Below, piece after piece: positions 29,298 through 50,244 of a stretch of DNA of 64,000 nt (position 1 is its first letter; each line of letters begins with the position of its first letter). The translations under genes and the position numbers were made by a program. This DNA comes from Cytophagaceae bacterium (GTDB lineage: Bacteria; Bacteroidota; Bacteroidia; Cytophagales; Spirosomataceae): assembly GCA_027486845.1 (NCBI GenBank), contig JAIXOL010000035.1, forward strand, positions 1 through 64,000, read 5' to 3'. The notes under the pieces were generated by a model that was not told the origin of the DNA, did no database searches, and saw nothing but the letters and a program-made list of their open reading frames with translations.

Positions 29298-30197
29298 ATG
29301 AATCGTTCAAAAGAAATACCAAAACTCAACCCTTCGCAGTTTGATGACTATCTTTTTGGAAATTGGAAACCCAAAGTTTCGAGTTTATATGAAAATTTTC
29401 ATATCGAACGCATCGAAAACTATAAATCTTTCCTGAAATTACCCATTTTACCGCATCGACGTTCGGTTTATTTTTTTCTGTATGTAAGTAAAGGATTTGC
29501 CATTAGAAGCAAAGGCTTGAATAGTTATGAAGTAAAAGCAAATACGTTTTTTTGTCTTTCTACTGACCAAATCACTTCGCTTGAAGCTATTTCTGAGGAT
29601 TTGGAAGGTTTTTATTGTCATTTTCAGCCTGAAATTTTCAATCAGCCGATGCTCAATGTTGATGTAGAAAAAGATTTTCCGTTTTTTCAAATTACAGCCG
29701 AATCATTGATTGAGGTACCAGAAACAGGCCGAGTTACGAATCTTTTAGAAATCCTACTTTCGGAGCGAACCCGAAACGAATCACATCGTGCCGAAATCAT
29801 TGCTTTGTACTTGACTACACTTTTTAATGAAATCAAGTTTTTGGATAGTCAATCGAAAAAAATGACTAATAATGCGGCCTCAAATCTTACGCAACGCTAT
29901 AAAATTTTATTATCAGAACAGATTTACAATAAAAAGACCGTCATCGAATTTGCCGAAATTTTGGCGGTATCACCTAATCATTTACATAAATGCGTAAAAA
30001 CGACAACTGGCAAAACTGCCCACGAACTTTTAGAAGAAATGCGGGTTTTGGAAGCAAAAGTTTTGCTCAAACAGACGTCCATGCGTATTGCCGAGGTTGC
30101 GTTTAAGATTGGTGGCTTTGAGCCAAGCGATTTTTCTAGATTCTTTAAATCTAAGACAGGAATTTCGCCAAAAGAATATAGGAACTTGCAAAATTGA
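29298..30197 (+). CDS. AraC-family regulator at the head of the hydroxycinnamate genes
   Basis: 299 residues. The first 190 form a cupin-like sensing domain without a named match, and the last 95 a double helix-turn-helix AraC domain, with IAEVAFKIGGFEPSDFSRFFKSKTGISPKEYR as the second HTH and signature. The gene is collinear with and 99 bases upstream of the enoyl-CoA hydratase, so it is the likely local activator of the catabolic genes. Effector unknown; a CoA thioester or the free cinnamate is a guess. Confidence 0.85.
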   Translation: MNRSKEIPKLNPSQFDDYLFGNWKPKVSSLYENFHIERIENYKSFLKLPILPHRRSVYFFLYVSKGFAIRSKGLNSYEVKANTFFCLSTDQITSLEAISEDLEGFYCHFQPEIFNQPMLNVDVEKDFPFFQITAESLIEVPETGRVTNLLEILLSERTRNESHRAEIIALYLTTLFNEIKFLDSQSKKMTNNAASNLTQRYKILLSEQIYNKKTVIEFAEILAVSPNHLHKCVKTTTGKTAHELLEEMRVLEAKVLLKQTSMRIAEVAFKIGGFEPSDFSRFFKSKTGISPKEYRNLQN

Positions 30198-30296
30198 TTG
30201 TTATTGCCTATTTTATTCATTATTTTACCTATTTAAAAAATCTTTTTATTGTTCAATTTTGTATTGAAATAAGTCAATCAAGTTTTGGATTATAAA

Positions 30297-31082
30297 ATGC
30301 AAGAAATAAAATCTCCCACCACGTCAATTCAATTAGAAATAAGAGACGAAATCCTGCTGGTGGCCATCAATCGCCCTGAAAAACGAAATGCCTTCAATGA
30401 CGATTTGATTCTGGGTATAGAAAGGGTCTTTGAGAATATTCCTTCACAGGTCCGTTGTGCAATCATTTATGGTTTAGGAAAACACTTTTCGGCAGGACTT
30501 GACCTTTCGGAGCTGAAAGAACAAGATGCCATTCAAGGGCTTCATCATTCTCGAATGTGGCATCGTGTACTAGAAAAAGTGCAATTTGGAACTGTGCCAG
30601 TTGTGGCAGTTTTGCACGGTGCAGTTGTAGGAGGCGGTCTCGAATTGGCTTCAGCTTGCCATATTAGAGTAGCCGAAACAAGTACTTTTTATGCACTTCC
30701 CGAAGGTCAAAGAGGAATTTTTGTAGGTGGCGGAGCATCGGTGCGAGTTCCAAAATTGATTGGTATAGCTCGCATGACCGATATGATGCTCACAGGGAGG
30801 GTTTATAAAGCTGAAGAAGGCGAGCGAATAGGAATGGCTCAGTATCTCGTTGAAGAGGGACAAGGACTCGAAAAGGGTATCGAATTAGCGAAAAAGATAG
30901 CCTCAAATGCTGGTATGACCAATTATGCACTCATGCACGTATTACCAAAAATTATTGATTCTTGTCAAAACGAAGGCTTATTGATTGAAAGCTTAACCGC
31001 AGCAATCGCTCAAAGTGCTCCCGAAGCCAAAGAAAGATTAAAAGATTTTATAGAAGGAAGGGCCAAAAAAGTAGGAGAATGA
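30297..31082 (+). CDS. Enoyl-CoA hydratase (crotonase family), hydroxycinnamoyl-CoA type
   Basis: Crotonase of 261 residues. The oxyanion-hole segments HFSAGLDL (63-70) and GAVVGGGLEL (108-117) are intact, with catalytic glutamates likely at Glu116 and Glu136 (LPEGQRG). From its neighbours I infer hydration of hydroxycinnamoyl-CoA to the 3-hydroxy thioester, as CouM does in Rhodococcus. A retro-aldol hydratase-lyase of the Fcs/Ech kind is the alternative, but no benzaldehyde dehydrogenase gene is near. Start at ATG 30297; a TTG four codons upstream is less likely. Confidence 0.83.
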   Translation: MQEIKSPTTSIQLEIRDEILLVAINRPEKRNAFNDDLILGIERVFENIPSQVRCAIIYGLGKHFSAGLDLSELKEQDAIQGLHHSRMWHRVLEKVQFGTVPVVAVLHGAVVGGGLELASACHIRVAETSTFYALPEGQRGIFVGGGASVRVPKLIGIARMTDMMLTGRVYKAEEGERIGMAQYLVEEGQGLEKGIELAKKIASNAGMTNYALMHVLPKIIDSCQNEGLLIESLTAAIAQSAPEAKERLKDFIEGRAKKVGE

Positions 31083-31142
31083 ACAGTTTTTTAGCAATAA
31101 AATAGCAAACATAAAGTATCCAACATTCATTATCTTAAAGGA

Positions 31143-32963
31143 ATGTATAAAAACACCCAATTCGGCCCTACCAAAACGAGTAAAAAACAACTCGAAAATG
31201 CCATTGTTCATTTCAAAAATGAGCAATTATTGGCCGATTTTCCAACTAAAATCACCGATAAATTAGTGCATTGGGCAAAAACAAAACCAGATCATACTTT
31301 TATTGGTAGAAGAAATCCAACTACGAGAGATTGGCATAAATTATCTTATGCAGAAACACTCGAAAAAGTGAAAAGTATCGCTCAGTATTTATTAAATCTC
31401 GAATTTACACCTGATGAAACCGTCGTGATTTTATCAGAAAATAGCCTCGAACATGCACTTTTGGCCTTAGCTTCGGTGCATATTGGGATTGCTTATACCC
31501 CGATTTCACCTCCGTATTCATTAGTTTCTAATGATTTTGGTAAACTCAAACATTGTCTGGAATTAATGACTCCGAAAGTCATTTTTGCTCAAAGTGGAAA
31601 AGTTTATCAGAAAGCCATCGAGTTTACCAAGACACTTTTTCCTGAAACCATTGTCGTTACTGCCGATGGTGAAGATGGTGTGTATTTTCAAGAAATACTC
31701 TATACGAAAGCTTCAGCCGATGTAAATATTGCCGCTGCAAAAGTAAATGCCGATACGATTGCCAAAGTTTTATTTACATCGGGCTCTACTGGCTTACCTA
31801 AAGGTGTAATGAATCATCACGAAATGTGGTGTGCCAATTTACAGCAGATTACGCAGGTGCTTCCGTTTATGCAGCTCCAACCGCCCGTTTTTATTGACTG
31901 GCTTCCGTGGAATCATACTTTTGGTAGTAATCATAATTTTGGACTCGCTCTTTTCAACGGTGGAACAATTTTGATTGATGATGGTAAACCAACACCCAAC
32001 GGCATCGAAGAAACCGTTCAGAATCTCCGCGAGATTTCTCCGACGGCCTATTTCAATGTGCCAAAAGGCTTTGAAATGTTGATTCCTTATTTAGAAAAAG
32101 AGCCAGCTTTACGAGAAAATTTCTTCAAAAATCTCAATATTTTGTTTTATGCAGGAGCAAGTTTGGCTCAGCCAGTTTGGAATCGCTTGGAAGATTTAGC
32201 AGTAGAAACGATTGGTGTAAAAATTCCGATTATCACGGGTTTGGGCTGCACTGAATCGGGGCCATCTGCGATGTTTGCCAACTGGGGCGGTGCATTTTCT
32301 GGACTTTTGGGGGTGCCTGTGGCTGGAATGGATGTAAAACTCGTACCCGATGGCGATAAAATTGAGGCTCGCTATAAAGCTCCCAATGTAACCAAAGGAT
32401 ACTGGCGAAACGATGAAGCAACCAAAAATGCTTTCGATGAAGATGGTTATTATAAAACAGGGGATGCCGTAAAATTTTTAGATGAAAACAACCCCGACAA
32501 AGGTTTGGTTTTTGATGGAAGAATTGCTGAAGATTTCAAACTCTCGACAGGAACCTGGGTGAATGTGGGAGTTTTGAAGGCAAAAGTTATTTCAACGGGC
32601 TCGCCAATTATTCAGGATGTTGTGTTTGCTGGCTTGGATAAAGAATATATTGGTGCAATTTTATTTTTAAATGCTGATGCTTGTAGAAAATTAGCTAATT
32701 TAAGTGTAGAAATTTCTAATAAAGAAGCATTTTTACATAAAAAAGTAGGAAATTTTATCAATAATTGGTTGACAGAATTTAACAAAACCTCAACGGGTAG
32801 TTCGACGGTCATTAAAAAATATGTTATTGCTCTCGAACCACCATCAATTGATTTAGGTGAAATAACCGATAAAGGTTCATTAAACCAAAGAGCAGTGTTG
32901 AAACATAGAGTTAATTTGGTAAATGAAATATACAGCCCCCTAACTCCCTATGGGGGAACATAA
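31143..32963 (+). CDS. Feruloyl-CoA synthetase-type acid-CoA ligase
   Basis: ANL-superfamily ligase of 606 residues. The ATP loop LFTSGSTGLPKGVMN is at 210-224, the acyl-binding motif GLGCTESGPSAMF near 365, and YKTGDAVKF near 437. The sequence around WHKLSYAETLEKVKSIAQYL and YTPISPPYSL is characteristic of feruloyl/hydroxycinnamoyl-CoA synthetases. It activates the acid for side-chain breakdown in the cytoplasm. The last ten residues (after NEI) are encoded by a GC-rich repeat that also gives the stop codon, so the native end may have been replaced. Confidence 0.85.
   Translation: MYKNTQFGPTKTSKKQLENAIVHFKNEQLLADFPTKITDKLVHWAKTKPDHTFIGRRNPTTRDWHKLSYAETLEKVKSIAQYLLNLEFTPDETVVILSENSLEHALLALASVHIGIAYTPISPPYSLVSNDFGKLKHCLELMTPKVIFAQSGKVYQKAIEFTKTLFPETIVVTADGEDGVYFQEILYTKASADVNIAAAKVNADTIAKVLFTSGSTGLPKGVMNHHEMWCANLQQITQVLPFMQLQPPVFIDWLPWNHTFGSNHNFGLALFNGGTILIDDGKPTPNGIEETVQNLREISPTAYFNVPKGFEMLIPYLEKEPALRENFFKNLNILFYAGASLAQPVWNRLEDLAVETIGVKIPIITGLGCTESGPSAMFANWGGAFSGLLGVPVAGMDVKLVPDGDKIEARYKAPNVTKGYWRNDEATKNAFDEDGYYKTGDAVKFLDENNPDKGLVFDGRIAEDFKLSTGTWVNVGVLKAKVISTGSPIIQDVVFAGLDKEYIGAILFLNADACRKLANLSVEISNKEAFLHKKVGNFINNWLTEFNKTSTGSSTVIKKYVIALEPPSIDLGEITDKGSLNQRAVLKHRVNLVNEIYSPLTPYGGT
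32935..32959 (+). repeat. GC-rich hairpin, copy 2, reading into the CoA ligase stop
   Basis: CCCCCTAACTCCCTATGGGGG overlaps the final codons of the ligase gene. It is the one copy inside a reading frame. Confidence 0.8.
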
Positions 32964-33026
32964 AACTCAATTGTTCTATTGGCTGGTAGATGAAAACAAA
33001 CTTTATATTTTTACAATTTATTAATT

Positions 33027-33039
33027 CCCCCATCGGGGG
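33027..33039 (+). repeat. GC-rich start-codon hairpin, copy 3
   Basis: CCCCCATCGGGGG followed by TAAGCGGGCTTT, ending 12 bases before the ATG at 33052. Confidence 0.8.
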
Positions 33040-33051
33040 TAAGCGGGCTTT

Positions 33052-33819
33052 ATGAAAATAGAAAACAACACATTCTTAATCACAGGCGGAGCTTCGGGCT
33101 TAGGTTTCGCAACCGCCAGAATGATTATTGAAAATGGCGGCAATGCCGTTTTACTCGATGTAAACGAAGAATTAGGAATAACCGCAAATACCAATTTAGG
33201 GATAAAATCAAAGTTTATAAAAACTGATGTAACCAATGAAGAACAAGTACAAAGTGCTGTTAATCAAGCTATCGAAACATTCAAGAGTATCGAAGGAATC
33301 ATTAATTGTGCCGGAGTTGGCTCTGCCAAAAGAGTAGTTGGTAAAGACGGCCCGCATTCGCTTGATTTCTTTCAAAAAGTAATCAACATAAATCTAATCG
33401 GCACTTTTAATACTCTCCGATTGGTAGCTGATAGAATGCAAAACAATGAGCCGAATGCTAAAGGAGAGAGGGGAATTGTAATTAATACTGCCTCGGTTGC
33501 AGCCTTTGATGGACAAATCGGACAGGCGGCTTATTCGGCATCTAAAGGCGGAATTGTGGCTATGACGTTACCAATTGCACGTGAATTTGCTCGAATGGGT
33601 ATCAGAGTAATGGCTATTGCACCCGGTATTTTTGAAACACCATTGTTGGCATCCCTATCGCAAGAAGCCCAAGATTCTTTAGGAAAACAGGTGCCATTTC
33701 CACCGCGACTGGGTAGTCCGTCTGAGTTTGCCGACTTAGTAAAACAAATCATCGAAAATACCATGCTCAATGGTGAAGTCATTCGCCTTGATGGAGCAAT
33801 TAGAATGGGAGCGAAATAG
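33052..33819 (+). CDS. SDR-family 3-hydroxyacyl-CoA dehydrogenase
   Basis: Short-chain dehydrogenase of 255 residues. The cofactor loop [10 protein letters not shown] is at 11-20, with NCAGVG near 86; catalytic Ser148, Tyr161 and Lys165 are visible. Asp36 at the end of beta-2 points to NAD. The sequence resembles the HSD10-type 3-hydroxyacyl-CoA dehydrogenases. In context it would oxidise the 3-hydroxy-3-aryl-propionyl-CoA made by the hydratase, the step CouN/PhdC performs in actinobacteria. It is preceded by a GC-rich hairpin and follows the ligase by 88 bases. Confidence 0.85.
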
Positions 33820-33825
33820 TTTCCA

Positions 33826-34339
33826 ATGACGAATTATTCGAATAGTGAATGACAAATAGTCTTTCGACAAAATAAACAATTTTTGATTTAAAAATACTTT
33901 TATTGATATCGAAAGCCTAAAAAATAGATACAAAAATTGGGCGATTTCGGTAGTTTTACTTACAAGAAAGCTACCAAATGAGCATGAATTTAAGGCCGTA
34001 AGAAATCAAATTGTTCGTTCTGCTCCATCTACTGCTGCAAATTATCGGGCAGCTTGCAGAGGAAAGTCAAGTCCAGATTTTATCAATAAATTAAAAATTA
34101 TTGAAGAAGAATTAGACGAAACTATGTTTTGGTTAGAATTCATAATTGCTTTATTACCAAAAATTAGACAAGAAATTGTGCCAATTTATAAAGAGGCTGA
34201 TGAACTTTTAGCAATAACAGTTTCATCAATCAAAACAGCAAGAAAAAAATAAAACAAGTGACGAATTTTTCAAACCACTAAATACAAATAAATTTTAATT
34301 TTAAAAAATTCGTAACTCGTCATTCGAATATTTCGTAAT
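33826..34339 (+). mobile_element. Inverted-repeat cassette carrying a four-helix-bundle gene
   Basis: 28-base imperfect inverted repeats (33826-33853 and 34312-34339; 21 of 28 match, shared core TATTCGAAT) bracket one small gene between the SDR and amidohydrolase genes. The right end also holds an inner palindrome built from GACGAATTTTT and AAAAATTCGTAAC. No transposase is present. That this is a mobile or once-mobile unit is inference from its structure and the parallel with the GxxExxY cassette at 45942. Confidence 0.55.
33902..34252 (+). CDS. Four-helix-bundle protein (S23/Avd-like), start codon lost or non-ATG
   Basis: Reading the frame that ends at 34252 gives a helical protein of about 116 residues of the 23S-rRNA-intervening-sequence/four-helix-bundle family: RYKNWAISVVLLTRKLP, SAPSTAANYRAACRGKS and IIEEELDETMFWLEFII are the classic segments. 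There is no ATG in the right place: the frame opens after a stop near 33884 and the first plausible initiator is ATT at 33902 (then DIESLKNRYKN). Either a rare start is used or the gene is silent. Related proteins bind nucleic acid, for instance as Avd in diversity-generating retroelements; no reverse transcriptase is nearby. Confidence 0.7.
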   Translation: MDIESLKNRYKNWAISVVLLTRKLPNEHEFKAVRNQIVRSAPSTAANYRAACRGKSSPDFINKLKIIEEELDETMFWLEFIIALLPKIRQEIVPIYKEADELLAITVSSIKTARKK

Positions 34340-34348
34340 TAAAAAAAT

Positions 34349-35215
34349 ATGATAGATATAAATAAAATTACCGCCATAGACGTACACACGCATGCAGAGG
34401 TGTCGTGTTGCCAGCCACATGATGATTATCGTCCAGAATTGGATGAAGCATTTGCCAAATATTTCAAGTCGGATAAACGCCCAACGATTCAAGAAACGGC
34501 CGATTTTTATCGAGATAATAATTTGGCTTTTGTCATGTTTAGCGTTGATTCAGAGCATAATGTTGGCAAACGTCGAATTCCGAATATAGAAGTTGCCGAA
34601 GCAGCTCTCAAAAACGATGATGTGATGATTGCCTTTGCGAGCATCGACCCGCACAAAGGCCGAATGGGAGCAAGAGAAGCCCGTGATTTGATAGAAAATT
34701 ATGGCGTAAAAGGTTTCAAATTTCATCCAACGGTACAAGGTTTTTATCCTTATGATAAAATGGCGTATCATCTTTACGAAGTAATTGCCGAATACAAATT
34801 ACCAATGCTTTTTCATTCAGGGCATTCGGGTTTTGGCTCTGGTGTGCGTGGTGGAGGTGGTTTGCGTTTAGAATATTCAAATCCAATGCACCTCGATGAC
34901 GTAGCAATTGATTTTCCTGACTGTCCAATTATTATTGCTCATCCTTCTTGGCCGTGGCAAGATGAAGCCCTTTCGGTAGCGATGCATAAGCCTAACGTTT
35001 ATATTGATTTGAGTGGCTGGTCACCAAAATATTTCCCGAAACAACTCATTCAATATGCCAATACAATGCTCAAAAACAGGGTTCTTTTTGGTACTGATTT
35101 TCCATTAATTACTCCCGAAAGATGGATGAAAGATTTTGAAGAAGCTGGTTTCAAGGAAGAAGTAAAGCCCTTAATTCTGAAAGAAAATGCTATCAGAATG
35201 CTGGGATTGAAGTAA
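34349..35215 (+). CDS. Amidohydrolase-superfamily enzyme, likely aryl-beta-ketoacyl-CoA hydrolase
   Basis: Metal-dependent TIM-barrel hydrolase of 288 residues. The metal ligands are DVHTH (Asp11, His13, His15), FHSGHSG (about 155), IIAHPSWPW (about 197) and GTDFP (Asp about 250). Members of this subgroup act on aromatic-derived acids. Its place after the ligase, hydratase and dehydrogenase matches CouO of Rhodococcus jostii and PhdB of Corynebacterium, which cleave 4-hydroxyphenyl-beta-ketoacyl-CoA to the hydroxybenzoate and acetyl-CoA. That assignment is inferred from context; other options are ACMSD- or LigW-like decarboxylases. Confidence 0.75.
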   Translation: MIDINKITAIDVHTHAEVSCCQPHDDYRPELDEAFAKYFKSDKRPTIQETADFYRDNNLAFVMFSVDSEHNVGKRRIPNIEVAEAALKNDDVMIAFASIDPHKGRMGAREARDLIENYGVKGFKFHPTVQGFYPYDKMAYHLYEVIAEYKLPMLFHSGHSGFGSGVRGGGGLRLEYSNPMHLDDVAIDFPDCPIIIAHPSWPWQDEALSVAMHKPNVYIDLSGWSPKYFPKQLIQYANTMLKNRVLFGTDFPLITPERWMKDFEEAGFKEEVKPLILKENAIRMLGLK

Positions 35216-35356
35216 AAGTGTAGAATACACAATTAAACTGTTACTTTCTGATTGTTTTTGCATATTTATTCTCTTATTTTGCATAGTATTATCATGGTAT
35301 AATGCAGAATTTTGTTGGAAAGTTATAATTTTAATTTGAGAGAAATTTCTTAAAAT

Positions 35357-35369
35357 CCCCCATCGGGGG
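35357..35369 (+). repeat. GC-rich start-codon hairpin, copy 4
   Basis: CCCCCATCGGGGG then CAGGGGGGCT, ending 18 bases before the ATG at 35388. The 13-base core is identical to copy 3. Confidence 0.8.
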
Positions 35370-35387
35370 CAGGGGGGCTATTTATTA

Positions 35388-36620
35388 ATGAAGATTATTA
35401 TTATCGGTGGTGGAATAGGTGGATTGACTACCGCATTGAGCCTTCATAAAGCTGGATTCGAGGTTAAGGTATTTGAATCGGTCAAAGAAATTAAACCTTT
35501 GGGCGTGGGTATCAACACACTTCCGCATAGTGTTCGAGTATTAACACATTTAGGTTTACAAGAAAAAATCGCTCAAAATGCTATCGAAACGAGCGATTTA
35601 GTTTATTTTAATAAATATGGTCAACAATTTTGGACAGAGCCACGTGGACGATTTGCTGGTTATAAATGGCCACAATTTTCGGTACATCGTGGAGTTTTGC
35701 AGATGTTGCTTTTTGATGAGGTTGTAGAAACATTGGGCAAAGATGCAATTCTGAAAAACCACCATTTAAGTCATTTTGAACAAACTAACAACCAAGTAAT
35801 TGCTCAATTTATAGATAAAGATACCAATGAAAAAATATTAGAAGAACGTGCCGATATTCTGATAGGTGCCGATGGTATCAATTCGGTCGTGCGTCAGCAA
35901 CTTTATCCAAACGAAGGATCCCCAGTTTATTCAGAAAATATTCTTTATCGTGGAACAACCACTATGAAACCGTTCTTAGACGGTACATCCATGGCAATGA
36001 TTGGCAGTTTACGTCAAAAGATGGTAGTTTATCCAATCGGCCAACCTGATGCTAATGGCAATTCATTAATAAATTGGGTAGGGAATATCAAAGAAGGGAA
36101 ATCGAGACTTACAGCTCGTGATTGGAATCGAGAAGCCGATAAAGCAAGATTAGTAGAATTGTATAAAGATTGGAAATTCGATTGGCTTGATGTGCCTACG
36201 ATGATTGACGGAGCAAAAGTTGTTTACGAATTTCCGATGTCGGACCGAAATCCTTTGGATAAATGGACTTTCGGGCGAGTAACACTACTCGGTGATGCCG
36301 CTCACCCGATGTATCCGATTGGCTCAAATGGTGCTTCACAAGCCATACTCGATGCCGATTGCTTGACAGAATGTTTGAAAAATACAAGTAATCCTTTGGA
36401 GGCACTTATCAAATACGATAAAGAAAGAGTACCAGCAACTGCAAAAGTGGTCTTACAAAACCGAGCCAAAGGGCCCGACGAGATAATGGATATGATGGAA
36501 GATTGGTTTCCGAAAGGCTTTACGAAAGATGAAATTCCGCATGAAGAACTGGCAAAAGTAATGGATAATTACAAAAAAGTAGCTGGCTTTGATATGCACA
36601 CCCTTAACCAAAAAAACTAA
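35388..36620 (+). CDS. FAD-dependent aromatic monooxygenase
   Basis: Class A flavoprotein monooxygenase of 410 residues. The N-terminal GGGIGGLTTALSLHKAGF binds ADP of FAD, RADILIGADGINS near residue 160 is the DG motif, and TLLGDAAHPMYPIGSNGASQ near 300 is the GD motif. It resembles salicylate-hydroxylase/UbiH-like enzymes that hydroxylate a phenolic ring with NAD(P)H. Substrate unknown; hydroxylation of a hydroxycinnamate or hydroxybenzoate is likely given the island. It is distinct from pobA, which is present separately. Confidence 0.82.
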   Translation: MKIIIIGGGIGGLTTALSLHKAGFEVKVFESVKEIKPLGVGINTLPHSVRVLTHLGLQEKIAQNAIETSDLVYFNKYGQQFWTEPRGRFAGYKWPQFSVHRGVLQMLLFDEVVETLGKDAILKNHHLSHFEQTNNQVIAQFIDKDTNEKILEERADILIGADGINSVVRQQLYPNEGSPVYSENILYRGTTTMKPFLDGTSMAMIGSLRQKMVVYPIGQPDANGNSLINWVGNIKEGKSRLTARDWNREADKARLVELYKDWKFDWLDVPTMIDGAKVVYEFPMSDRNPLDKWTFGRVTLLGDAAHPMYPIGSNGASQAILDADCLTECLKNTSNPLEALIKYDKERVPATAKVVLQNRAKGPDEIMDMMEDWFPKGFTKDEIPHEELAKVMDNYKKVAGFDMHTLNQKN

Positions 36621-36623
36621 GAA

Positions 36624-37229
36624 ATGAAACACTCATTAAATCACAGAAATGTGATGTGGATTTTCGCTGAAGAAAAAATATGTTCTAATCGGCATTTTCA
36701 AAGAAATCTGGGTTCTATTATTTGCATTGCTTTTTGCCTACTAAATATGAATTTATTTGCTCAAAGTTCACCCGAAGCACCAAGTTTAGAGTTTGTTTGT
36801 GAATTAAAAGTTAGGCTAAAAGCACCATACATTGTCGGAGAAACGCCTCACGGTATGCGTAGAATCATTCCAATTATAGGCGGAAGTTTTGAAGGACCAA
36901 AAATGAAAGGTGAGATTTTGGATGGCGGAGGTGATTGGCAAATTGTGAGAAAAGATGGCGTGGCCGAACTGGAAGCTCATTATCAAATCATAACCGACGA
37001 TGGTGTAACGATTTATATCAAAAATACTGGTTTGCGTGTAGCTACTCCTGAAGTTGCAGCTCGAATCGGAAGAGGAGAAGTTGTTTCGCCATCGGATTAT
37101 TATTTTCGTGCGATACCAAAATTTGAAGCACCACAAGGCAAATACGATTGGATGAATAATGCCATTTTTATTTGTAAAGGAATTAGAAATCCAGACAATG
37201 TCACAATTCAAGTTTGGAAAGTTTTATAA
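36624..37229 (+). CDS. DUF3237 protein with a signal peptide
   Basis: Residues about 52-200 form a DUF3237 beta-barrel domain, with IPIIGGSFEGPKMKGEILDG as the family signature. The N-terminal 47 residues carry a hydrophobic stretch (GSIICIAFCLLNMNLFAQ) that looks like a Sec signal, preceded by an unusually long polar n-region. DUF3237 proteins often accompany aromatic-degradation genes, with unproven function. It starts three bases after the monooxygenase stop, so the pair is cotranscribed. Confidence 0.75.
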   Translation: MKHSLNHRNVMWIFAEEKICSNRHFQRNLGSIICIAFCLLNMNLFAQSSPEAPSLEFVCELKVRLKAPYIVGETPHGMRRIIPIIGGSFEGPKMKGEILDGGGDWQIVRKDGVAELEAHYQIITDDGVTIYIKNTGLRVATPEVAARIGRGEVVSPSDYYFRAIPKFEAPQGKYDWMNNAIFICKGIRNPDNVTIQVWKVL

Positions 37230-37279
37230 ATGATTATTTGCTAAGCCTCTTTTATTCAACCTTATACACCTAATAAACA

Positions 37280-38578
37280 ATGACTTTCAACCCCAAAACC
37301 CTCATCGATAAAAATCCGATGACAGGTCTGCAGTATTCTACCATTCTTATTTGTTTTTTAATGAATATGCTTGATGGTATGGACGTACTCGTGATTTCTT
37401 ACACCGCTCCCGCCATTACTAAAGCGTGGGATATTTCTCCACAGGCTTTGGGTACAGTTTTTAGTGCTGGGCTATTCGGAATGACTATCGGAACGCTTTT
37501 TTTAGCTCCTTTTGCCGATAAAATCGGTCGGAAATCCATCATTCTCATTAGTGGCATCATTATGGGTGTTTGTATTTATCTTACTTCTTATGCCGCCTCA
37601 ATTACTGAGTTGTTGATTTATCGTTTTGTAAGTGGGCTTGGCATTGGCAGTATGTTGGCAAGTACGGCTTCACTTGCTTCTGAGTACACTCCCAACAAAA
37701 CCCGTGATTTTTGGGTGAGTTTTGTGATTTCGGGTTATCCAATTGGAGCAGTAGTAGCGGGTTTAGTGGCTGCTAAAGTAATTCCGACTGAAGGTTGGCA
37801 ACAAATGTTTCGCATTGCGGGTATTGCTTCTATGTTTTCTGTGCCATTGATTCTGTTTTTTCTTTCAGAATCCATCGATTTTTATTTACGAACTCAACCC
37901 CAAAATGCCCTCGAAAAACTGAATAAGATTCTAGCAAAAATGAATATTCAGCCTTTAGAATCTTTGCCAATAATTGATAAAATCAAGTCAAAATTGCCGG
38001 TTGACCAATTGCTCAAAACCGACTTTAAAAAACCAACGCTTCAGCTTTGGGCTGCCTTATTCATGGCATTTGCCGCTTTGTATTTTTTGACAAGTTGGAT
38101 TCCAAAATTGGCAAAAGATGCAGGACTTTCGATGGAATTGGCGATTTATGCAGGAACAGTCTTTAATATTGGGGCATTTTTTGGAATTATTACACAAGGA
38201 TATTTTTCGAGCAAATATGGCTTAAAGAAAACTTTAGGCGTAATCTTGGTGCTAACTGGCGTTTTAATGGCATCGTTTGGTCTTTTTGTTGGCTCAGATG
38301 TAATCTTGCTTATTTTGGCACTATTAGGCTTTGGTATTCAAGGCGGTTTCGTTGGGCTTTATGCACTTTCAGCTAGATTATACCCAACCGAATTTCGCAC
38401 AACTGGCGTGGGCTGGGCAATGGGAGCGGGGCGATTGGGCGGTATCGTAGGCCCAATGATTGGCGGATTATTGATTGGAGCAGGTTTAGGAATCGCCACC
38501 AACTTCCTCATTTTTGCAGTTCCAGCACTTTTATCGGGTTTAATTACTGCAAAAATAGATTCAAAAGAAATAAGTTAA
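37280..38578 (+). CDS. MFS transporter, aromatic acid:H+ symporter (AAHS) family
   Basis: Inner-membrane permease of 432 residues with 12 predicted helices. The DGMDV motif in helix 1 (MLDGMDVLVISY) and the loop 2-3 signature FADKIGRKSII are typical of AAHS importers such as PcaK. The second half has YPTEFRTTGVGWAMGAGRLGGIVGP. It probably imports a hydroxycinnamate, 4-hydroxybenzoate or protocatechuate. It follows DUF3237 by 50 bases on the same strand. Confidence 0.88.
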   Translation: MTFNPKTLIDKNPMTGLQYSTILICFLMNMLDGMDVLVISYTAPAITKAWDISPQALGTVFSAGLFGMTIGTLFLAPFADKIGRKSIILISGIIMGVCIYLTSYAASITELLIYRFVSGLGIGSMLASTASLASEYTPNKTRDFWVSFVISGYPIGAVVAGLVAAKVIPTEGWQQMFRIAGIASMFSVPLILFFLSESIDFYLRTQPQNALEKLNKILAKMNIQPLESLPIIDKIKSKLPVDQLLKTDFKKPTLQLWAALFMAFAALYFLTSWIPKLAKDAGLSMELAIYAGTVFNIGAFFGIITQGYFSSKYGLKKTLGVILVLTGVLMASFGLFVGSDVILLILALLGFGIQGGFVGLYALSARLYPTEFRTTGVGWAMGAGRLGGIVGPMIGGLLIGAGLGIATNFLIFAVPALLSGLITAKIDSKEIS

Positions 38579-38616: not shown

Positions 38617-39360
38617 ATGAAAAAAAGAGAAAAATTAGCAATCATTCATCAGCATTATCCGAATGCTACTACAACAATTGATAATGTAAATACGTTGATT
38701 GATTTTGTTGAAAACGAACTCGATTTGGAAACTAGCCAAATTATGCTTGCTGATAGTATTTGTAGTGATGATGTTAATAGTATTCAGTATCCCTCAAGAG
38801 CTCATGAGTTTTTGGGGCCTTTCAAAATGGGAGGATTAAATGGGTTTCCGTTTACGGGTTTGACCGGAATGGGAGCTTTTGCAAGTCATGTGCCTGATGA
38901 AGGGGCTGTTTTTGTTTATTATGGCCCGCATATTGGTGTTTCTAAAAATGGAGCAATAGGAGAAATTCATCGCGTTGGACAAACCAAAAATACAGGCTGT
39001 TGCGGAGCTGCCAAAGGAGCATTGGGTAAGTTGGTTGATAATCTTATCGAAGAAGGAAAGGTAAGCGAAATGGACTATCAGATGAATACTATCGAGCAGA
39101 TTTTACTTAAAGAAAAAGAACGAGTTTTATCGGCAGATCTTCCTATCAAAGAAGCCACAGAAGTAATTTATGAAGCTATTGACCGACGAATTTTAGAACT
39201 TGTGGCGGCTACAAAATATAATTGTAAATATATTATTTTGGTAGGTGTTATTTTGATTAATAGCGATAGTGATATGGGCTCATTTACCGAAATAAGACGT
39301 TTTGAGTACATTAATCTTGCCACTCAAGAGCGAACAGTTTTACATAATAGTTTTACTTAA
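38617..39360 (+). CDS. LCIB/C-like (theta-class) putative carbonic anhydrase
   Basis: 247 residues. The pattern SICSDDVN (Cys49), GFPFTGLTGMGAFASHVPD (His91), YGPHIGV and GQTKNTGCCGAAKGA (Cys128/129) is that of the limiting-CO2-inducible B/C family, beta-carbonic-anhydrase-like zinc enzymes first known from algae, in which Cys-His-Cys bind zinc. No transmembrane segment or signal is seen. It lies directly after the aromatic acid transporter (38 bases), so a link with CO2/bicarbonate handling during decarboxylating catabolism is tempting but unproven. Confidence 0.75.
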   Translation: MKKREKLAIIHQHYPNATTTIDNVNTLIDFVENELDLETSQIMLADSICSDDVNSIQYPSRAHEFLGPFKMGGLNGFPFTGLTGMGAFASHVPDEGAVFVYYGPHIGVSKNGAIGEIHRVGQTKNTGCCGAAKGALGKLVDNLIEEGKVSEMDYQMNTIEQILLKEKERVLSADLPIKEATEVIYEAIDRRILELVAATKYNCKYIILVGVILINSDSDMGSFTEIRRFEYINLATQERTVLHNSFT

Positions 39361-39572: not shown

Positions 39573-40676
39573 ATGTCAAATTTTAGAGCCGACCACGTGG
39601 GTAGTTTATTACGCACACCAGCAGTAAAAGAAAATCGTTTCAAGTGGAAAAAAGGAGAGATTTCTGCCGAAGAATTAAGAGCAATCGAAGATGAAGGAAT
39701 TGCCGAAACTGTAAAGCATTTAGAAGCAACAGGAATGAAAGCCATCACCGACGGAGAGTTTCGTCGTGACTATTTTCACCTCGATTTCTTGAAAGAATTG
39801 GCCGGTGTCAGTGTAACTGGCGGTATAGATGCTAATCCCAATGCCAAATCCGCCGAAGATGGTTTTACACCGCCGATTTTGAGTGTTACAGGTAAACTCA
39901 AGCACGTAAAAGACATTCAAGTAGCTGATTTCAATTATCTAAAAACGGTTGTTTCGCAAACGCCAAAAGTTTCGATTCCGTCACCAACGATGATTCACTT
40001 TCGTGGTGGCCGTAAATCAATTGATATTAATTCGTATCCCGATATGGACGAATTCTTTTCCGATTTAGCTGCCGCTTATCGTGAAGAAATTGCTCATTTA
40101 TATGATGCAGGTTTGCGTTATTTGCAACTTGATGATACAAACTTGGCATATCTCTGCGACCCTAAAATGCGTGCTGCTGCCCAAGAAAGAGGCGAAGACC
40201 CGAACGAATTGCCACGCACGTATGCTGCTCTTATCAATTCGGTAATTGACAATCGCCCTGCTGATTTGATGGTAGGTATTCACCTTTGCCGTGGAAATTA
40301 TCGCAGCACATGGTTTGCCGAAGGTGGCTATGAGCCAGTTGCTGAAATTCTTTTTAACGAAATTAATGTTGACCGCTATTTACTCGAATACGACGATGAG
40401 CGTTCGGGCGATTTTGCTCCACTTCGCTTCATGCCGAATAACAAAAAAGTAGTTTTGGGCATTATTTCATCAAAAAAACGTGAACTCGAAAACATTGATG
40501 AGCTCTGCAAACGCATCGACGAAGCAGCTCAATATACGCCAATCGAAAACCTTTGTGTGAGTCCGCAATGTGGGTTTTCATCAACGCACCATGGTAATGA
40601 TATGAGCCACGACGACCAATGGCGTAAACTTGATTTAACCGTAAACACTGCCCTAAAAGTTTGGGGAGAAGCATAA
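39573..40676 (+). CDS. MetE-like cobalamin-independent methyltransferase
   Basis: 367 residues corresponding to the catalytic C-terminal half of cobalamin-independent methionine synthase (COG0620, YxjG-like). The zinc ligands are conserved: His237-x-Cys239 (GIHLC), Glu272 (LLEYDD) and Cys333 (SPQCGF). Asp188 in LQLDDT matches the amine-binding residue. It has no N-terminal half, so it is not a classic MetE. The methyl donor and acceptor are unknown. In a ferulate island a role in disposing of methyl groups is possible, but only inferred. Confidence 0.8.
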   Translation: MSNFRADHVGSLLRTPAVKENRFKWKKGEISAEELRAIEDEGIAETVKHLEATGMKAITDGEFRRDYFHLDFLKELAGVSVTGGIDANPNAKSAEDGFTPPILSVTGKLKHVKDIQVADFNYLKTVVSQTPKVSIPSPTMIHFRGGRKSIDINSYPDMDEFFSDLAAAYREEIAHLYDAGLRYLQLDDTNLAYLCDPKMRAAAQERGEDPNELPRTYAALINSVIDNRPADLMVGIHLCRGNYRSTWFAEGGYEPVAEILFNEINVDRYLLEYDDERSGDFAPLRFMPNNKKVVLGIISSKKRELENIDELCKRIDEAAQYTPIENLCVSPQCGFSSTHHGNDMSHDDQWRKLDLTVNTALKVWGEA

Positions 40677-40802: not shown

Positions 40803-41918
40803 ATGAAAAAAGTCTTAATTTTATTATTTTTCACTCATATAGTTTTCGCTCAAAGCATTGCTAAAACCGATACTGGAAGCATCAATGGAGCAAAATATAA
40901 AATCCTTTTTCCTGAAAACTGGAAAGGGAAATTGGTGATGTATGCACATGGTTATGAATTTATGGGGTCGAAGCCCACACAAAGCCAAAATCCAGAGTTT
41001 CCGAAGCGAATGATCCCGTTTTTGGAAAGAGGTTTTGCCGTAGCAGCCTCTGATTATGCTTTTCAAGGCTTGGCTTTAGTTCAAGGAGTGGATGATACTG
41101 AGTCGTTAAGACAATATTTTGTAAAAAAATATGGTCAACCAGATTCAACTTTTATGGTTGGGCATTCGATGGGTGGTGGAATTACACTGGCTACCCTCGA
41201 AAACTATGGAAAGAATTATAATGGAGGTTTACCAATGTGTCCGTTGGCTGGACGAATTTATCTTCAAACTCGCAAAGAATTTGATATGTTTGCTACTTTC
41301 AATGGCCTTTTTCCAAATATTGCTACTTCTCTGCATGATATTTTTGATATGTCAAAGCCCAAAGAAGTAGCCTCAATGCAGGTGGCTTTTGGTAAAGCAA
41401 TGTTGATGAAAAAGGCAATTTATGCAAGAGATTCGCTACTTGCCGTAGAATTTGCCCAGCATTTTGATATAAAAACCGATGATTTGGCTTTTGCATTGGC
41501 ATTTGGCGAGGGAGTTTTGCGTGATATTGCAAAAAAAGCTGGTGGAAACCCCTATGATAATACCAATACGATTTATGGAAGATTTCCAAATAATCTTTTG
41601 GTAAATCAGAAAGCTGAACGCTTGGTCGCAACTGTAAATATAAATATGCTTTTCGATAAATACGATAGAACTGGCATAATTGACAAACCAACTTTGGCTT
41701 TACATACGATTTATGACCAACTGATTCCTGCCGATTTAGCGATTGTAAGTTATGAAAATTTAATTCAAAAGCAGGGGAAACAACAGTATTTTAGCGTAAA
41801 ATATACAAACGGTCAAGGTCATTGTAATTTTACTAATCAACAAACTGGAAAAACTTTCGATGAATTGAGAAATTGGGTAAAAACTGGTCAAAAAGCAAAA
41901 GCAGGTTTTATGGAGTGA
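40803..41918 (+). CDS. Secreted alpha/beta hydrolase, candidate esterase
   Basis: 371 residues with a Sec signal (cleavage after residue 16, VFA-Q). The triad is visible: Ser122 in VGHSMGG, Asp305 in IYDQLIP, His340 in NGQGHCNF. No lipid-binding or SusD-like part. Given its place in the aromatic island, a periplasmic esterase that releases hydroxycinnamates from plant esters is plausible; lipase/peptidase-type hydrolases cannot be excluded. Confidence 0.7.
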   Translation: MKKVLILLFFTHIVFAQSIAKTDTGSINGAKYKILFPENWKGKLVMYAHGYEFMGSKPTQSQNPEFPKRMIPFLERGFAVAASDYAFQGLALVQGVDDTESLRQYFVKKYGQPDSTFMVGHSMGGGITLATLENYGKNYNGGLPMCPLAGRIYLQTRKEFDMFATFNGLFPNIATSLHDIFDMSKPKEVASMQVAFGKAMLMKKAIYARDSLLAVEFAQHFDIKTDDLAFALAFGEGVLRDIAKKAGGNPYDNTNTIYGRFPNNLLVNQKAERLVATVNINMLFDKYDRTGIIDKPTLALHTIYDQLIPADLAIVSYENLIQKQGKQQYFSVKYTNGQGHCNFTNQQTGKTFDELRNWVKTGQKAKAGFME

Positions 41919-42071: not shown

Positions 42072-42944
42072 TTATATTTTTTTGAATTCACTCGGTGAAA
42101 CACCCGTTTGTTTCTTGAAAAGTCGAGTAAAATAGGCAGGGTCTTTGAAATTGAGTAAGTACGAAACCTCAGAAATCGAATAATTTGTATTAAGCAAATA
42201 TTTTTTGGCTTCAGTAATCAGATATTCATGGATTATCTGTAAAGCCGATTTTTTTACGATAGCATGACAAACTCGATTGAGATGTACAGGTGTGATAGTC
42301 AGTTCTTTAGCATAAGTTTCAACCGATTTTGTTTCTGTAATTGTCTGCTTGATGCTCTTCTGAAATGCCTTGAAATAATTAAGCATTTTATTGTCAGAAA
42401 TCGAAATTTCTTGTTTTTCTAAAATACTAAATCGGTAAATCTGAATAAACAATAACTGAAATAAAAGCTGAATCACATTTCTTTTTTCGGGATTTTCATC
42501 AATTAATTCATTCAAAATTTGTATTTTATATTGAATTACCTGCTCAAAAATAGCATTTTCTTTGCCAAAATTCAGTATTTTCAATTGGGTAGTTTCTATT
42601 AAAATTTTAGGCGAATTCCTAAAAATATTTTCAAGAAACGACTCCGAAAACGTAATAACCTCGCCCACTACATCGGGCTGAAAAATAAAGCCATGCACAG
42701 TGTTGGCAGGAATCAAAATGATACTTGGGCCTTCTGTTTTCAATTCATTTTCTCCCGAAATTAATAGCCCACTTCCATCATGAATAATAAAAATTTGATA
42801 CAGCTCTGCGTGCAAATGCTCTTTTATTTCCCAATCATAAATTTTACTTCGAGTTTCGAGCGATTCATGATGCAGGAAATTCGGAAAAACCACCGATTGG
42901 GTATCGCCATAAAGTCCACCAAATTGTATTAAACCTTTTTTCAT
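42072..42944 (-). CDS. AraC-family regulator, PobR-like
   Basis: 290 residues. The N-terminal cupin has EHLHAELYQIFIIHDGSG and IPANTVHGFIFQPDVVGEV, the pattern of AraC-type activators of pobA; the C-terminal 95 residues carry the double HTH, ending in DPAYFTRLFKKQTGVSPSEFKK. It is divergent from pcaH with a 232-base spacer, the classic arrangement for a local activator. The likely effector is 4-hydroxybenzoate. Confidence 0.85.
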   Translation of the reverse strand: MKKGLIQFGGLYGDTQSVVFPNFLHHESLETRSKIYDWEIKEHLHAELYQIFIIHDGSGLLISGENELKTEGPSIILIPANTVHGFIFQPDVVGEVITFSESFLENIFRNSPKILIETTQLKILNFGKENAIFEQVIQYKIQILNELIDENPEKRNVIQLLFQLLFIQIYRFSILEKQEISISDNKMLNYFKAFQKSIKQTITETKSVETYAKELTITPVHLNRVCHAIVKKSALQIIHEYLITEAKKYLLNTNYSISEVSYLLNFKDPAYFTRLFKKQTGVSPSEFKKI

Positions 42945-43176: not shown

Positions 43177-43884
43177 ATGAGTAATATCACATATAACCAA
43201 TTCGACCGTGAGGTACATCCACCGTACTTAGCTCCGGAATACAAATCAACGATTCTAAGAGCTCCAACCAAACCTTTGATTTTTCTAAAACAATCGCTTT
43301 CTGAACTAACAGGGCCAGTTTTTGGTGATTTCAACTTAGGGGAATTTGATAATGACCTAACCAAAAATTCAATAAAAAATGGTGAACCACTGGGCGAAAG
43401 AATCGTAGTTCACGGCAAGGTGATGAATGAAAACGGACAGCCAATACCGAATACTTTAATAGAAATTTGGCAAGCCAATTCATGTGGCCGCTATGTACAT
43501 AAAGTTGACCAACATGATGCACCTCTCGACCCGAATTTCTTGGGTGCTGGGCGTTGTATGACTGATAAAGACGGGAATTATAAGTTTTATACCATCAAAC
43601 CGGGGGCTTATCCTTGGGGAAATCACTACAACGCTTGGCGTCCAAACCACATACATTTTTCGTTGTTTGGGGCAAATATTACCAATCGTTTGGTTACTCA
43701 AATGTATTTTCCAGGTGACCCGCTCTTGCAGCATGACCCTATTTTCTTATGCATTCCACCAAAAGGTCGTGAACTGTTAATCTCAAAATTCGATTTAGAT
43801 GCTACCGAGCCAAATTTTGCTCTTGGCTATCGCTTCGATTTTGTATTACGAGGCTACAACGCAACTCCTTTTGAAAAGATTTAA
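43177..43884 (+). CDS. pcaH: Protocatechuate 3,4-dioxygenase beta subunit
   Basis: Iron(III) intradiol dioxygenase subunit that cleaves protocatechuate to 3-carboxy-cis,cis-muconate. All four iron ligands are present: Tyr106 (GRYVHK), Tyr145 (GAYPWG), His158 and His160 (PNHIHF). Further signatures are DPNFLGAGRCMTD and TQMYFPGDPLLQHDP. Length 235 is normal. It is the first gene of the pca operon, followed by pcaG. Confidence 0.96.
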   Translation: MSNITYNQFDREVHPPYLAPEYKSTILRAPTKPLIFLKQSLSELTGPVFGDFNLGEFDNDLTKNSIKNGEPLGERIVVHGKVMNENGQPIPNTLIEIWQANSCGRYVHKVDQHDAPLDPNFLGAGRCMTDKDGNYKFYTIKPGAYPWGNHYNAWRPNHIHFSLFGANITNRLVTQMYFPGDPLLQHDPIFLCIPPKGRELLISKFDLDATEPNFALGYRFDFVLRGYNATPFEKI

Positions 43885-43898
43885 AAAAACACCCCTAT

Positions 43899-43910
43899 CC
43901 CCTAAAGGGG
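43899..43910 (+). repeat. GC-rich start-codon hairpin, copy 5
   Basis: CCCCTAAAGGGG in the pcaH-pcaG gap, ending 16 bases before the pcaG ATG. Confidence 0.75.
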
Positions 43911-43926
43911 AACAAAAATAAGATTT

Positions 43927-44502
43927 ATGGAAAATATTTTGAATAAAGATACTTCAAGCTTGTCTTTAGGGGCGGCACTTCAAACTCCCTCACAAACAGT
44001 AGGGCCATATTTTGCTTATGGTCTTACGTCTGAGCAATATTTATATGATTTTAAGCAATTGGTTGGTAATCAGATGGTTAGCTCAATTGAGAATGAAGAA
44101 GCAATCACAATCATGGGGAAAGTTTTCGATGGTAATGGTGATGTGATTCCCGATGCTATGATAGAAATTTGGCAAAATGATGGTAAAAATCAACTTTTTG
44201 GGCGTTTCGGTACGGGAACTGATGCTAAGAATCGCTTTGTTTTTACTACAATCAAGCCAAAATCCATTGATGGACAAGCTCCGTATCTTTCAGTTATTGT
44301 CTTTATGCGTGGGCAAATGATTCATTCTTATACCCGCATTTATTTTTCTGATGAACACCAACTAAATGCTACTGACGAAGTGCTAAATGCCGTTCCTGAC
44401 GAACGAAAAAATACGCTCATTGCCGAGAAAAAAGGTATTAATAAATATGAATTCAATATCAATATGCAAGGCGAAAACGAAACTGTATTTTTTGAGATTT
44501 AG
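43927..44502 (+). CDS. pcaG: Protocatechuate 3,4-dioxygenase alpha subunit
   Basis: 191 residues; TPSQTVGPYFAYGLT at 20-34 and the intradiol core (GKVFDGNGDVIPDAMIEIWQ, then FGRFGTGTD) match PcaG. It lacks the full set of iron ligands, as the alpha subunit normally does, and completes the active site of PcaH. It is 42 bases after pcaH. Confidence 0.94.
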   Translation: MENILNKDTSSLSLGAALQTPSQTVGPYFAYGLTSEQYLYDFKQLVGNQMVSSIENEEAITIMGKVFDGNGDVIPDAMIEIWQNDGKNQLFGRFGTGTDAKNRFVFTTIKPKSIDGQAPYLSVIVFMRGQMIHSYTRIYFSDEHQLNATDEVLNAVPDERKNTLIAEKKGINKYEFNINMQGENETVFFEI

Positions 44503-45972: not shown

Positions 45973-46402
45973 AGAAAATAAAATGAATGAAAACGAGCTG
46001 TCAAAAATCATAGTAGATGTAGCTTTCAAGATACATACACAACTTGGACCGGGACTTTTAGAATCGGTCTATGAAGAAATTATGTTTTTTGAACTAACCA
46101 AGTGAGGATTTCTGGTAGAAAGACGAAAGGGCATTCCAGTTATATGGGAAAATCTAAAAATAGATTTGGGTTTTCGGGCAGATTTGATTGTTGAGAAAAA
46201 AGTAATTATTGAGTTAAAACCTGTTGAGACAATTGCTCTCGTGCACCCAAAACAATTACTGACTTATTTACGAATTACGAATGTAAAGTTAGGTCTTTTG
46301 ATAAATTTCAACGAAACACTTATCAAAAACGGAATCACTCGAATAGTAAATAACTTATAATTCTCATTAAGAAAAAACTTGGCGTCTCTGCGACTTTGCG
46401 AG
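45942..46402 (+). mobile_element. GxxExxY cassette with terminal inverted repeats
   Basis: 25-base inverted repeats, 45942-45966 and 46378-46402, match at 23 of 25 positions; each carries CTCGCAAAG and GCAGAGACGC. They enclose a single GxxExxY gene, now broken. There is no transposase and I see no clear target duplication. The left repeat overlaps the end of pcaB and the right one stops 18 bases before pcaL, so the cassette sits inside the pca operon. Confidence 0.8.
45983..46360 (+). pseudogene. GxxExxY protein with an internal stop
   Basis: The frame reads MNENELSKIIVDVAF then LGPGLLESVYEE, the defining GxxExxY motif, and after codon 40 hits TGA (46103-46105). It continues in the same frame with GFLVERRKGIPVIW and FRADLIVEKKVIIELKPVE to a normal stop at 46360 (125 codons). 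A single change from CGA or AGA would explain the stop. The function of the family is unknown; the fold suggests a PD-(D/E)XK-like nuclease. Recoding is unlikely. Confidence 0.85.
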
Positions 46403-46420
46403 AAAAACCTTAAAAAAACT

Positions 46421-47554: not shown

Positions 47555-47573
47555 ACAGCAGTTCATATTTTTA

Positions 47574-48752: not shown

Positions 48753-48760
48753 ACTGTGGA

Positions 48761-48777
48761 GCGAACTTCTAGTTCGC
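48761..48777 (+). repeat. GCGAACT hairpin between pobA and pcaIJ
   Basis: GCGAACT-TCT-AGTTCGC, a perfect 7-bp stem with a 3-base loop. Related to 40686-40701. Confidence 0.6.
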
Positions 48778-48806
48778 AGATTACATTAATATATAAAAAA
48801 GACTAT

Positions 48807-50150: not shown

Positions 50151-50164
50151 TTATTAGTTAAATT

Positions 50165-50227
50165 AGTCATTGTATTGACTAAATTTATATAAAATTCGTC
50201 ATTGTATTGACAGTTTTTTTATTTTTG
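50165..50227 (+). promoter_or_regulatory. Operator-like repeat and -7 element of the AAA/DUF4143 gene
   Basis: The 14-mer GTCATTGTATTGAC occurs twice (50166-50179 and 50198-50211), 32 bases apart; each copy is GTCA-N6-TGAC. TATTTTTG at 50220-50227 fits TAnnTTTG. The layout suggests a protein-bound control site for the following gene. Confidence 0.5.
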
Positions 50228-50244
50228 TGAAAAAAAATTAAAAA

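Follow-up and report, generated by a model that had tools for sequence, protein, structure and literature searches.

A gene cluster with predicted coenzyme A-dependent deacetylation of p-hydroxycinnamates and an adjoining MetE-like gene in a Cytophagaceae bacterium

Introduction

By which route would a bacterium of the Bacteroidota shorten the side chain of p-hydroxycinnamic acids, and how would it dispose of their methoxy groups? Both questions are raised by a gene cluster on contig JAIXOL010000035.1 of a Cytophagaceae bacterium (GCA_027486845.1; genome of 5.36 Mb in 82 contigs), of which the first 64,000 nucleotides, referred to as the window, were analysed. An initial annotation, made from the sequence alone, had assigned eight genes between positions 29298 and 38578 to a benzaldehyde-free hydroxycinnamate pathway dependent on coenzyme A (CoA). 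The cluster is read here, with a probability of about 0.86, as a locus whose products take up p-hydroxycinnamates and degrade them by CoA-dependent beta-oxidative deacetylation. In addition, a MetE-like gene (39573–40676), which lies just outside the interval of the eight genes and was not mentioned in that annotation, is considered as a candidate for the methoxy groups.

The four-enzyme pathway, for which Campillo 2014 and Otani 2014 are reportedly the primary papers, is already known from Proteobacteria and Actinobacteria and is rare in Bacteroidota; what makes the present case a variant is its Bacteroidota host, its AraC regulator and the MetE-like gene. In A. fabrum, ferulate is converted to vanillate by feruloyl-CoA synthase, enoyl-CoA hydratase, a dehydrogenase and Atu1421 (PMC7797058). 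CouO is described as an amidohydrolase, the product of its step being the aromatic acid (PMC4737184), and HpeF of Rhodococcus rhodochrous GD02, 95% identical to CouO, is given as the predicted hydroxyphenyl-beta-ketopropionyl-CoA hydrolase and last enzyme of acetovanillone catabolism (PMC9618137). Purified PipU, PipV, PipW and PipX of Rhodococcus ruber, which are described as similar to p-hydroxycinnamate enzymes, act together on ferulate and release acetyl-CoA (PMC12753220). Among the papers listed in literature searches, no description of the pathway in Bacteroidota was found.

Results and discussion

Gene set and proposed route

All eight genes were recovered as open reading frames (ORFs) on the plus strand, and profile scores bore out the family named for each. 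The first encodes an AraC-family regulator of 299 aa (29298–30197; Pfam HTH_18, 71 bits), which probably regulates the operon. It is followed by a crotonase, predicted to be a hydroxycinnamoyl-CoA hydratase (30285–31082, with TTG start as called and an ATG at 30297; PRK08150, 395 bits, cut-off 232), a predicted feruloyl/p-coumaroyl-CoA synthetase of 606 aa (31143–32963; PRK12582), a short-chain dehydrogenase/reductase (SDR), probably a 3-hydroxy-3-arylpropionyl-CoA dehydrogenase (33052–33819; adh_short, 155 bits; 52% identity with its counterpart in the Rhizobium Q54 locus), and an amidohydrolase-superfamily protein, predicted to be a beta-ketoacyl-CoA hydrolase like CouO, HpeF and Atu1421 (34349–35215; Amidohydro_2, 166 bits). 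A flavin adenine dinucleotide (FAD) monooxygenase (35388–36620; PRK07538, 568 bits, cut-off 400; closest solved structures 2rgj/3c96), a DUF3237 protein with a signal-like N-terminal segment by eye (36624–37229; PF11578, 172 bits) and a predicted aromatic-acid importer of the AAHS type of the major facilitator superfamily (37280–38578; TIGR00895, 372 bits, cut-off 418) complete the set.

From the observed gene identities, synteny, catalytic-residue pattern and phylogenetic placement, the following substrates and order of reactions are inferred. The importer would bring in the hydroxycinnamic acid, the Fcs-type ligase would convert it to the CoA thioester, the crotonase would add water to the hydroxycinnamoyl-CoA, the SDR would oxidise the beta-hydroxyl, and the metal-dependent amidohydrolase would cleave the aroylacetyl-CoA into free aromatic acid and acetyl-CoA, so that neither a benzaldehyde nor thiolysis would be part of the route. 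From p-coumarate, 4-hydroxybenzoate would arise, and PobA would hydroxylate it to the protocatechuate that the products of the adjacent pca genes use; caffeate would give protocatechuate directly, and ferulate would give vanillate, the MetE-like enzyme presumably disposing of methoxy groups. The pobA and pca genes, announced initially as lying 10 kb downstream, are indeed present, with pcaH closer than stated, at 43177 and 4.6 kb past the interval, and pobA at 47574–48752. The absence of a benzaldehyde dehydrogenase and of a side-chain thiolase holds within the window: in BLASTP searches (E 1e-3) of window ORFs of at least 90 aa, a vanillin-type aldehyde dehydrogenase query remained unmatched and a pcaF query matched pcaF alone. 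Queries for biotin carboxylase and HAD phosphatase likewise gave no match among these ORFs.

The chemistry of Rhodococcus CouL/M/N/O and Corynebacterium PhdA/E/C/B, to which the cluster had been likened, stands as the best reading, whereas the closest gene-for-gene match is of the Agrobacterium/Rhizobium type (600-aa Fcs, crotonase, SDR and amidohydrolase). The same four steps are found in SpG8-1b of A. fabrum (Atu1415, Atu1416, Atu1417 and Atu1421); the likeness runs through the locus of Rhizobium sp. Q54, which by homology holds the same set as the window at 41–57% identity, and not through the Atu sequences. The ligase of the window is 41% identical to the annotated feruloyl-CoA synthase of that strain, and the four enzyme types are clustered also in records from Paracoccus and Phaeobacter. 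Unlike the window, the A. fabrum cluster has MarR/GntR repressors and the tetrahydrofolate-dependent vanillate demethylase Atu1420, while the window has the AraC regulator and the MetE-like gene, its genome being without a LigM candidate. With the Rhodococcus Cou pathway, the window shares an amidohydrolase as last enzyme, from which an aromatic acid results; in three actinobacterial cou-like loci, by contrast with the window, the hydratase is of the MaoC type and the ligase is shorter. The same last step is shared with the Hpe pathway, which differs in its entry from hydroxyphenylethanones via kinase, carboxylase and phosphatase.

Conservation of the cluster

At E ≤ 1e-30, the amidohydrolase occurred in 3 of 395 genomes sampled from the phylum and, among 58 relatives, in 16, the own genome included in each case; a raw tally of 23 in the 58 relatives includes weak matches to other amidohydrolases. 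For gene neighbourhoods, contigs were scanned and the best 80 loci were used (13 from Bacteroidota and 67 others; more exist), and 26 Bacteroidota genomes, own included, were treated as distinct. Genes were counted within the stretches fetched, which differ in length, some contigs ending early, and the presence counts are therefore lower bounds. The 26 Bacteroidota clusters contained the ligase in 23 cases, the crotonase in 23, the alpha/beta hydrolase in 22, the MetE-like gene in 20, the importer in 19, DUF3237 in 16, the SDR in 14, AraC in 13, the FAD monooxygenase in 7 and the carbonic anhydrase in 1. Since ligase and crotonase occurred near the amidohydrolase in 23 of the 26 genomes, the grouping of these genes is not due to chance. 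Among the 67 non-Bacteroidota loci, ligase and crotonase were present in 42, with the SDR in 36 of these, and a MetE-like gene in 4.

The same counts bear on whether the substrate is a different aromatic acid, with a separate route made up of FAD monooxygenase, DUF3237 protein and amidohydrolase, and with ligase, hydratase and SDR acting on something else. Such a division would account for the otherwise unexplained FAD monooxygenase and DUF3237 genes, which lie between amidohydrolase and importer in the window and in its nearest relatives; it is made very improbable by the frequent company of ligase and crotonase with the amidohydrolase, set against a FAD monooxygenase in only 7 of the 26 clusters, a count that also leaves this enzyme unsupported as a core step of the deacetylation route. 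The carbonic anhydrase was dropped as a pathway part, its single occurrence being that of the own genome.

Crotonase: hydratase or lyase

Numbered from the ATG at 30297, the crotonase of the window carries E116 and E136 at the hydratase dyad, positions which we take to be those of the catalytic glutamates of enoyl-CoA hydratases. Both glutamates were present in 76 of 76 crotonases of the window type (window included, a few genomes entering twice), and the first was absent in 9 of 9 hydroxycinnamoyl-CoA hydratase-lyases (HCHLs), with Ser, Thr or Gly instead. These nine comprise two named references and seven sequences 54–83% identical to one of them; three further HCHL-labelled sequences (31–32% identity), kept apart, showed EE, SF and GE. 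Among solved structures, the crotonase is closest to 3hin (308 bits), followed by 4izb/4izc (215 and 212 bits).

If the crotonase were an HCHL, the route would pass through a hydroxybenzaldehyde and an unlinked aldehyde dehydrogenase. The HCHL/vanillin-dehydrogenase route does share a CoA ligase and the crotonase fold with the window, at 23–25% identity between crotonase and HCHL, and in 6 of the 67 non-Bacteroidota loci, all six proteobacterial, an HCHL stands beside the amidohydrolase, none of them having the ligase with a window-type crotonase; the presence of the amidohydrolase alone is therefore no proof of the route. Against an HCHL stand both hydratase glutamates, the best family (PRK08150), the lack of a vanillin-type aldehyde dehydrogenase in the window and, at the thresholds used, in all 26 Bacteroidota clusters (0/26, as for HCHL itself), and an SDR that would be left idle. 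Because the hydratase dyad is in place, with neither Ser, Thr nor Gly at its first position, the HCHL reading was rejected, and an aldehyde route is regarded as highly unlikely; the release of 4-hydroxybenzaldehyde by the hydratase, raised initially as an outcome that would overturn the pathway, finds no sign in the active-site pattern.

In five loci of Pandoraea and Paraburkholderia (L099, L105, L110, L118 and L128), the amidohydrolase was observed together with an HCHL and an aldehyde dehydrogenase.

Amidohydrolase: hydrolase or decarboxylase

The amidohydrolase shares 57% identity with a Rhizobium protein that bears the annotation 4-hydroxyphenyl-beta-ketoacyl-CoA hydrolase and is encoded among genes for feruloyl-CoA synthase, crotonase, SDR and a MarR regulator, and 53–58% with Rhodococcus proteins of hpe- and cou-like loci; its likeness to CouO, PhdB and Atu1421 is a comparison with homologues in like gene contexts. 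H13, H15 and D250 are invariant in 58 amidohydrolase sequences and H156 and H198 are present in at least 90% of them, all five being residues which we take from family knowledge to be metal ligands. With a profile of nine homologues, the uncharacterised structure 3irs scored 105 bits and no named decarboxylase more than 35 bits, and the AlphaFold model (predicted local distance difference test, pLDDT, 87.7) matched 3irs in Foldseek with a template modelling (TM) score of 0.78. Profile search and structure prediction had been proposed initially as the check. By sequence, the amidohydrolase stands close to those encoded at loci of the cou-, hpe- and SpG8-1b-like kinds. In profile and fold searches, its likeness to decarboxylases is only distant, and a decarboxylase function was rejected.

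A tree was built from the 58 homologues, a set with no decarboxylase among them. The 13 Bacteroidota proteins, window included, formed one clade (support 100/98), its sister group being composed of proteins of alphaproteobacterial, actinobacterial and other origin, and one group of 30 rows united the Rhodococcus hpe- and cou-like with the Bacteroidota amidohydrolases (98/96). The contexts labelled HYD, COU, HPE and HCHL were interleaved across the tree. Homologues occurred in three kinds of locus, namely Agrobacterium-like (L003, L007, L027), actinobacterial with a MaoC hydratase (L002, L009, L026) and hpe-like (L004, L025, L131), the relatives in hpe-like loci being 53–71% identical to the protein of the window. 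Judged by sequence, these three contexts appear to converge on one aroylacetyl-CoA hydrolase, and one amidohydrolase family would serve two upstream pathways, those of hydroxycinnamates and of hydroxyphenylethanones. Two Pseudomonas loci (L004 and L102, one of them on a P. putida plasmid typed as conjugative) were seen to carry an hpe-like set ending in an amidohydrolase, at 71% identity.

Several points weigh against the deacetylation route. The chemistry of the enzymes on hydroxycinnamoyl-CoAs is a prediction, and the dual glutamate of the crotonase leaves lyase activity possible. PRK12582 is by far the best family of the ligase, yet its 731 bits stay below the curated cut-off of 777. Decarboxylases appeared among the Foldseek top 50 of the amidohydrolase with TM scores of 0.56–0.70, though this is expected within Amidohydro_2 from the shared superfamily fold. 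The six loci pairing amidohydrolase and HCHL belong here as well, as do the FAD monooxygenase and the DUF3237 protein, which have no place in the scheme. Finally, the SDR was unlinked in 12 of the 26 Bacteroidota clusters as fetched: no dehydrogenase candidate was seen by eye in the stretches of L036–L038, L040, L047 and L053, and those of G005, G008 and L049 were short or not looked at. In the other three clusters without an SDR (L032, L039 and L052), an apparent zinc-type alcohol dehydrogenase was noticed by eye near the amidohydrolase (about 331 aa in L032), which is a possible replacement.

The MetE-like gene and aromatic methoxy groups

The MetE-like gene (39573–40676, plus strand) encodes a predicted zinc methyltransferase of 367 aa (PRK06520, 453 bits, cut-off 313). 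The fold and, by alignment, the zinc-ligand residues are shared with MetE, core methionine synthases (MesA-D) and Listeria 1ypx, the last being the top match by sequence and by fold (AlphaFold model, pLDDT 78). H237, C239, E272 and C333, invariant in 13 of 13 sequences, align with the MetE zinc ligands and are presumed to act as such. Unlike MetE, the protein consists of the catalytic domain only, the N-terminal half (folate domain) being absent, and its gene is clustered with aromatic catabolism. In the tree, Comamonadaceae and Bacteroidota forms stood together (96/96), apart from three plasmid relatives (one each from Klebsiella, Rhodovulum and Selenomonas), which have contexts unrelated to aromatics and two of which are on very long branches.

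In the 395-genome sample, the MetE-like gene and the amidohydrolase were found (E ≤ 1e-30) in the same three genomes, either alone in none and neither in 392. Among the 58 relatives, both were present in 15 (G006 being counted on partial matches with an internal stop), the amidohydrolase only in G029, the MetE-like gene only in G012 and neither in 41. Genomes of one family are not independent, and Fisher values for this co-occurrence therefore overstate the case. The MetE-like gene of G008 lies about 11 kb off, beyond its stretch, and that of G012 is accompanied by an importer, with no hydroxycinnamate genes in the stretch read; one P450 was noticed near it. No MetE-like gene was found in the stretches fetched for L052, L054, L055 and L056, the rest of these genomes not having been searched. 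In Hydrogenophaga locus L091, the MetE-like gene adjoins a second ligase-crotonase pair.

In G029, the one relative with the amidohydrolase only, vanA and vanB are divergent to an IclR regulator beside the pca/pob cluster, and in G024, G032 and G565 the orthologous regulator is divergent from the MetE-like gene. The regulator belongs to the PcaR/PcaU/PobR family (assigned in G032), is 69–85% identical between genomes and was present in 4 of the 222 family genomes (E ≤ 1e-60). The exchange with vanAB is thus seen across four genomes, of which a single one has vanAB. A head-to-head arrangement of the MetE-like gene with vanA (66% identical to VanA of G029) occurs in Hydrogenophaga L084, vanB following further on.

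Vanillate demethylases were searched for in 17 genomes, the 16 amidohydrolase carriers and G012. VanA_C gave one strong match (163 bits), in G029, and matches of 24–61 bits, over the Pfam cut-off, in 5 of the 16 MetE-like carriers (G000, G004, G005, G008 and G245), with none in the remaining 11 of the 17 genomes. In G000, G004 and G008, the match lies beside an apparent beta-ketoacyl-acyl carrier protein synthase III (KAS III) by eye, and VanB was unmatched there. The own genome has a Rieske protein with a VanA_C match of 60 bits (Pfam cut-off 23.5), 31% identical over half of G029 VanA; it had no NCBIfam match at 1e-30 and no VanB in the surrounding stretch, a KAS-III-like neighbour being seen by eye. 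Despite its score it was not counted as VanA, having neither VanB nor an NCBIfam name. A LigM candidate was found in none of the 17 genomes, own included, by PF01571, which we assume able to detect LigM: each has just one GCV_T protein, the size of which is that of GcvT. The search of the own genome did not extend to P450 demethylases.

This genomic company suggests that the MetE-like enzyme handles aromatic methoxy groups, and cluster-bearing Bacteroidota seem to use it where a relative uses vanAB. Its bolder form, that the protein is a new zinc aromatic O-demethylase needing neither oxygenase nor tetrahydrofolate nor cobalamin, with vanillate (or ferulate, or the CoA ester of ferulate) as methyl donor and a thiol such as homocysteine as acceptor, is speculative and rather unlikely. 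In a second version, the enzyme would be the acceptor step for methyl groups freed by another enzyme. The slot exchange with vanAB favours the enzyme as the demethylase itself; the acceptor version stays open because L084 has both the MetE-like gene and vanAB, a coexistence that fits one-carbon disposal as well as demethylation.

It is also quite conceivable, if not our preferred view, that the gene merely supplies methionine and travels with the cluster. Its family is annotated as methionine synthase, its fold is that of 1ypx and MetE, and the three plasmid relatives are found away from aromatics, all as mere methionine supply would have it; its tracking of the hydroxycinnamate cluster in both genome samples, its place in the vanAB slot beside the orthologous IclR regulator and the head-to-head arrangement with vanA in L084 speak against this. 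Nothing direct on O-demethylation by MetE-like proteins was found among the papers listed in literature searches, PMC7857596 included. For lignin conversion, it matters that VanAB releases formaldehyde and that LigM has a demand for folate. A MetE-like demethylase, if real, would be new aromatic O-demethylation chemistry relevant to that conversion, and in Bacteroidota and some Comamonadaceae it would link the catabolism of lignin monomers with the supply of methionine.

Flanking genes and further observations

The plus-strand run continues past 38578 with an LCIB-type beta carbonic anhydrase (38617–39360; PF18599, 253 bits) between the importer and the MetE-like gene, and, beyond the latter, with an alpha/beta hydrolase having a signal-like N-terminus by eye (40803–41918), a possible hydroxycinnamate esterase with a weak Tannase/feruloyl esterase match (25.9 bits, below the cut-off of 29.8). 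An AraC regulator on the minus strand (42072–42944; TIGR02297, 150 bits, cut-off 275) is divergent from pcaHG for protocatechuate 3,4-dioxygenase (43177–44502, plus strand; TIGR02422, 351 bits; TIGR02423, 183 bits). The plus-strand genes pcaB, pcaDC, pobA, fused pcaIJ, an ORF and pcaF follow (44644–52580), all identified by NCBIfam matches except the ORF, which had none and is presumably of the AAA/DUF4143 type.

Between SDR and amidohydrolase, a plus-strand open stretch of 121 codons (33887–34252) with no ATG, GTG or TTG start seen is a probable gene remnant, probably of a gene for a small helical protein; its translation may resemble 23S-rRNA intervening-sequence proteins.

Apparent malonate transporter and malonyl-CoA-synthase-like ORFs were noticed in or beside clusters or the MetE-like gene in L136, L039, L040 and L053. 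In L136, a family search gave MadM over the cut-off and malonyl-CoA synthase as best family but below its cut-off, the other three being judged by eye; these genes are perhaps tied to malonylated plant phenolics.

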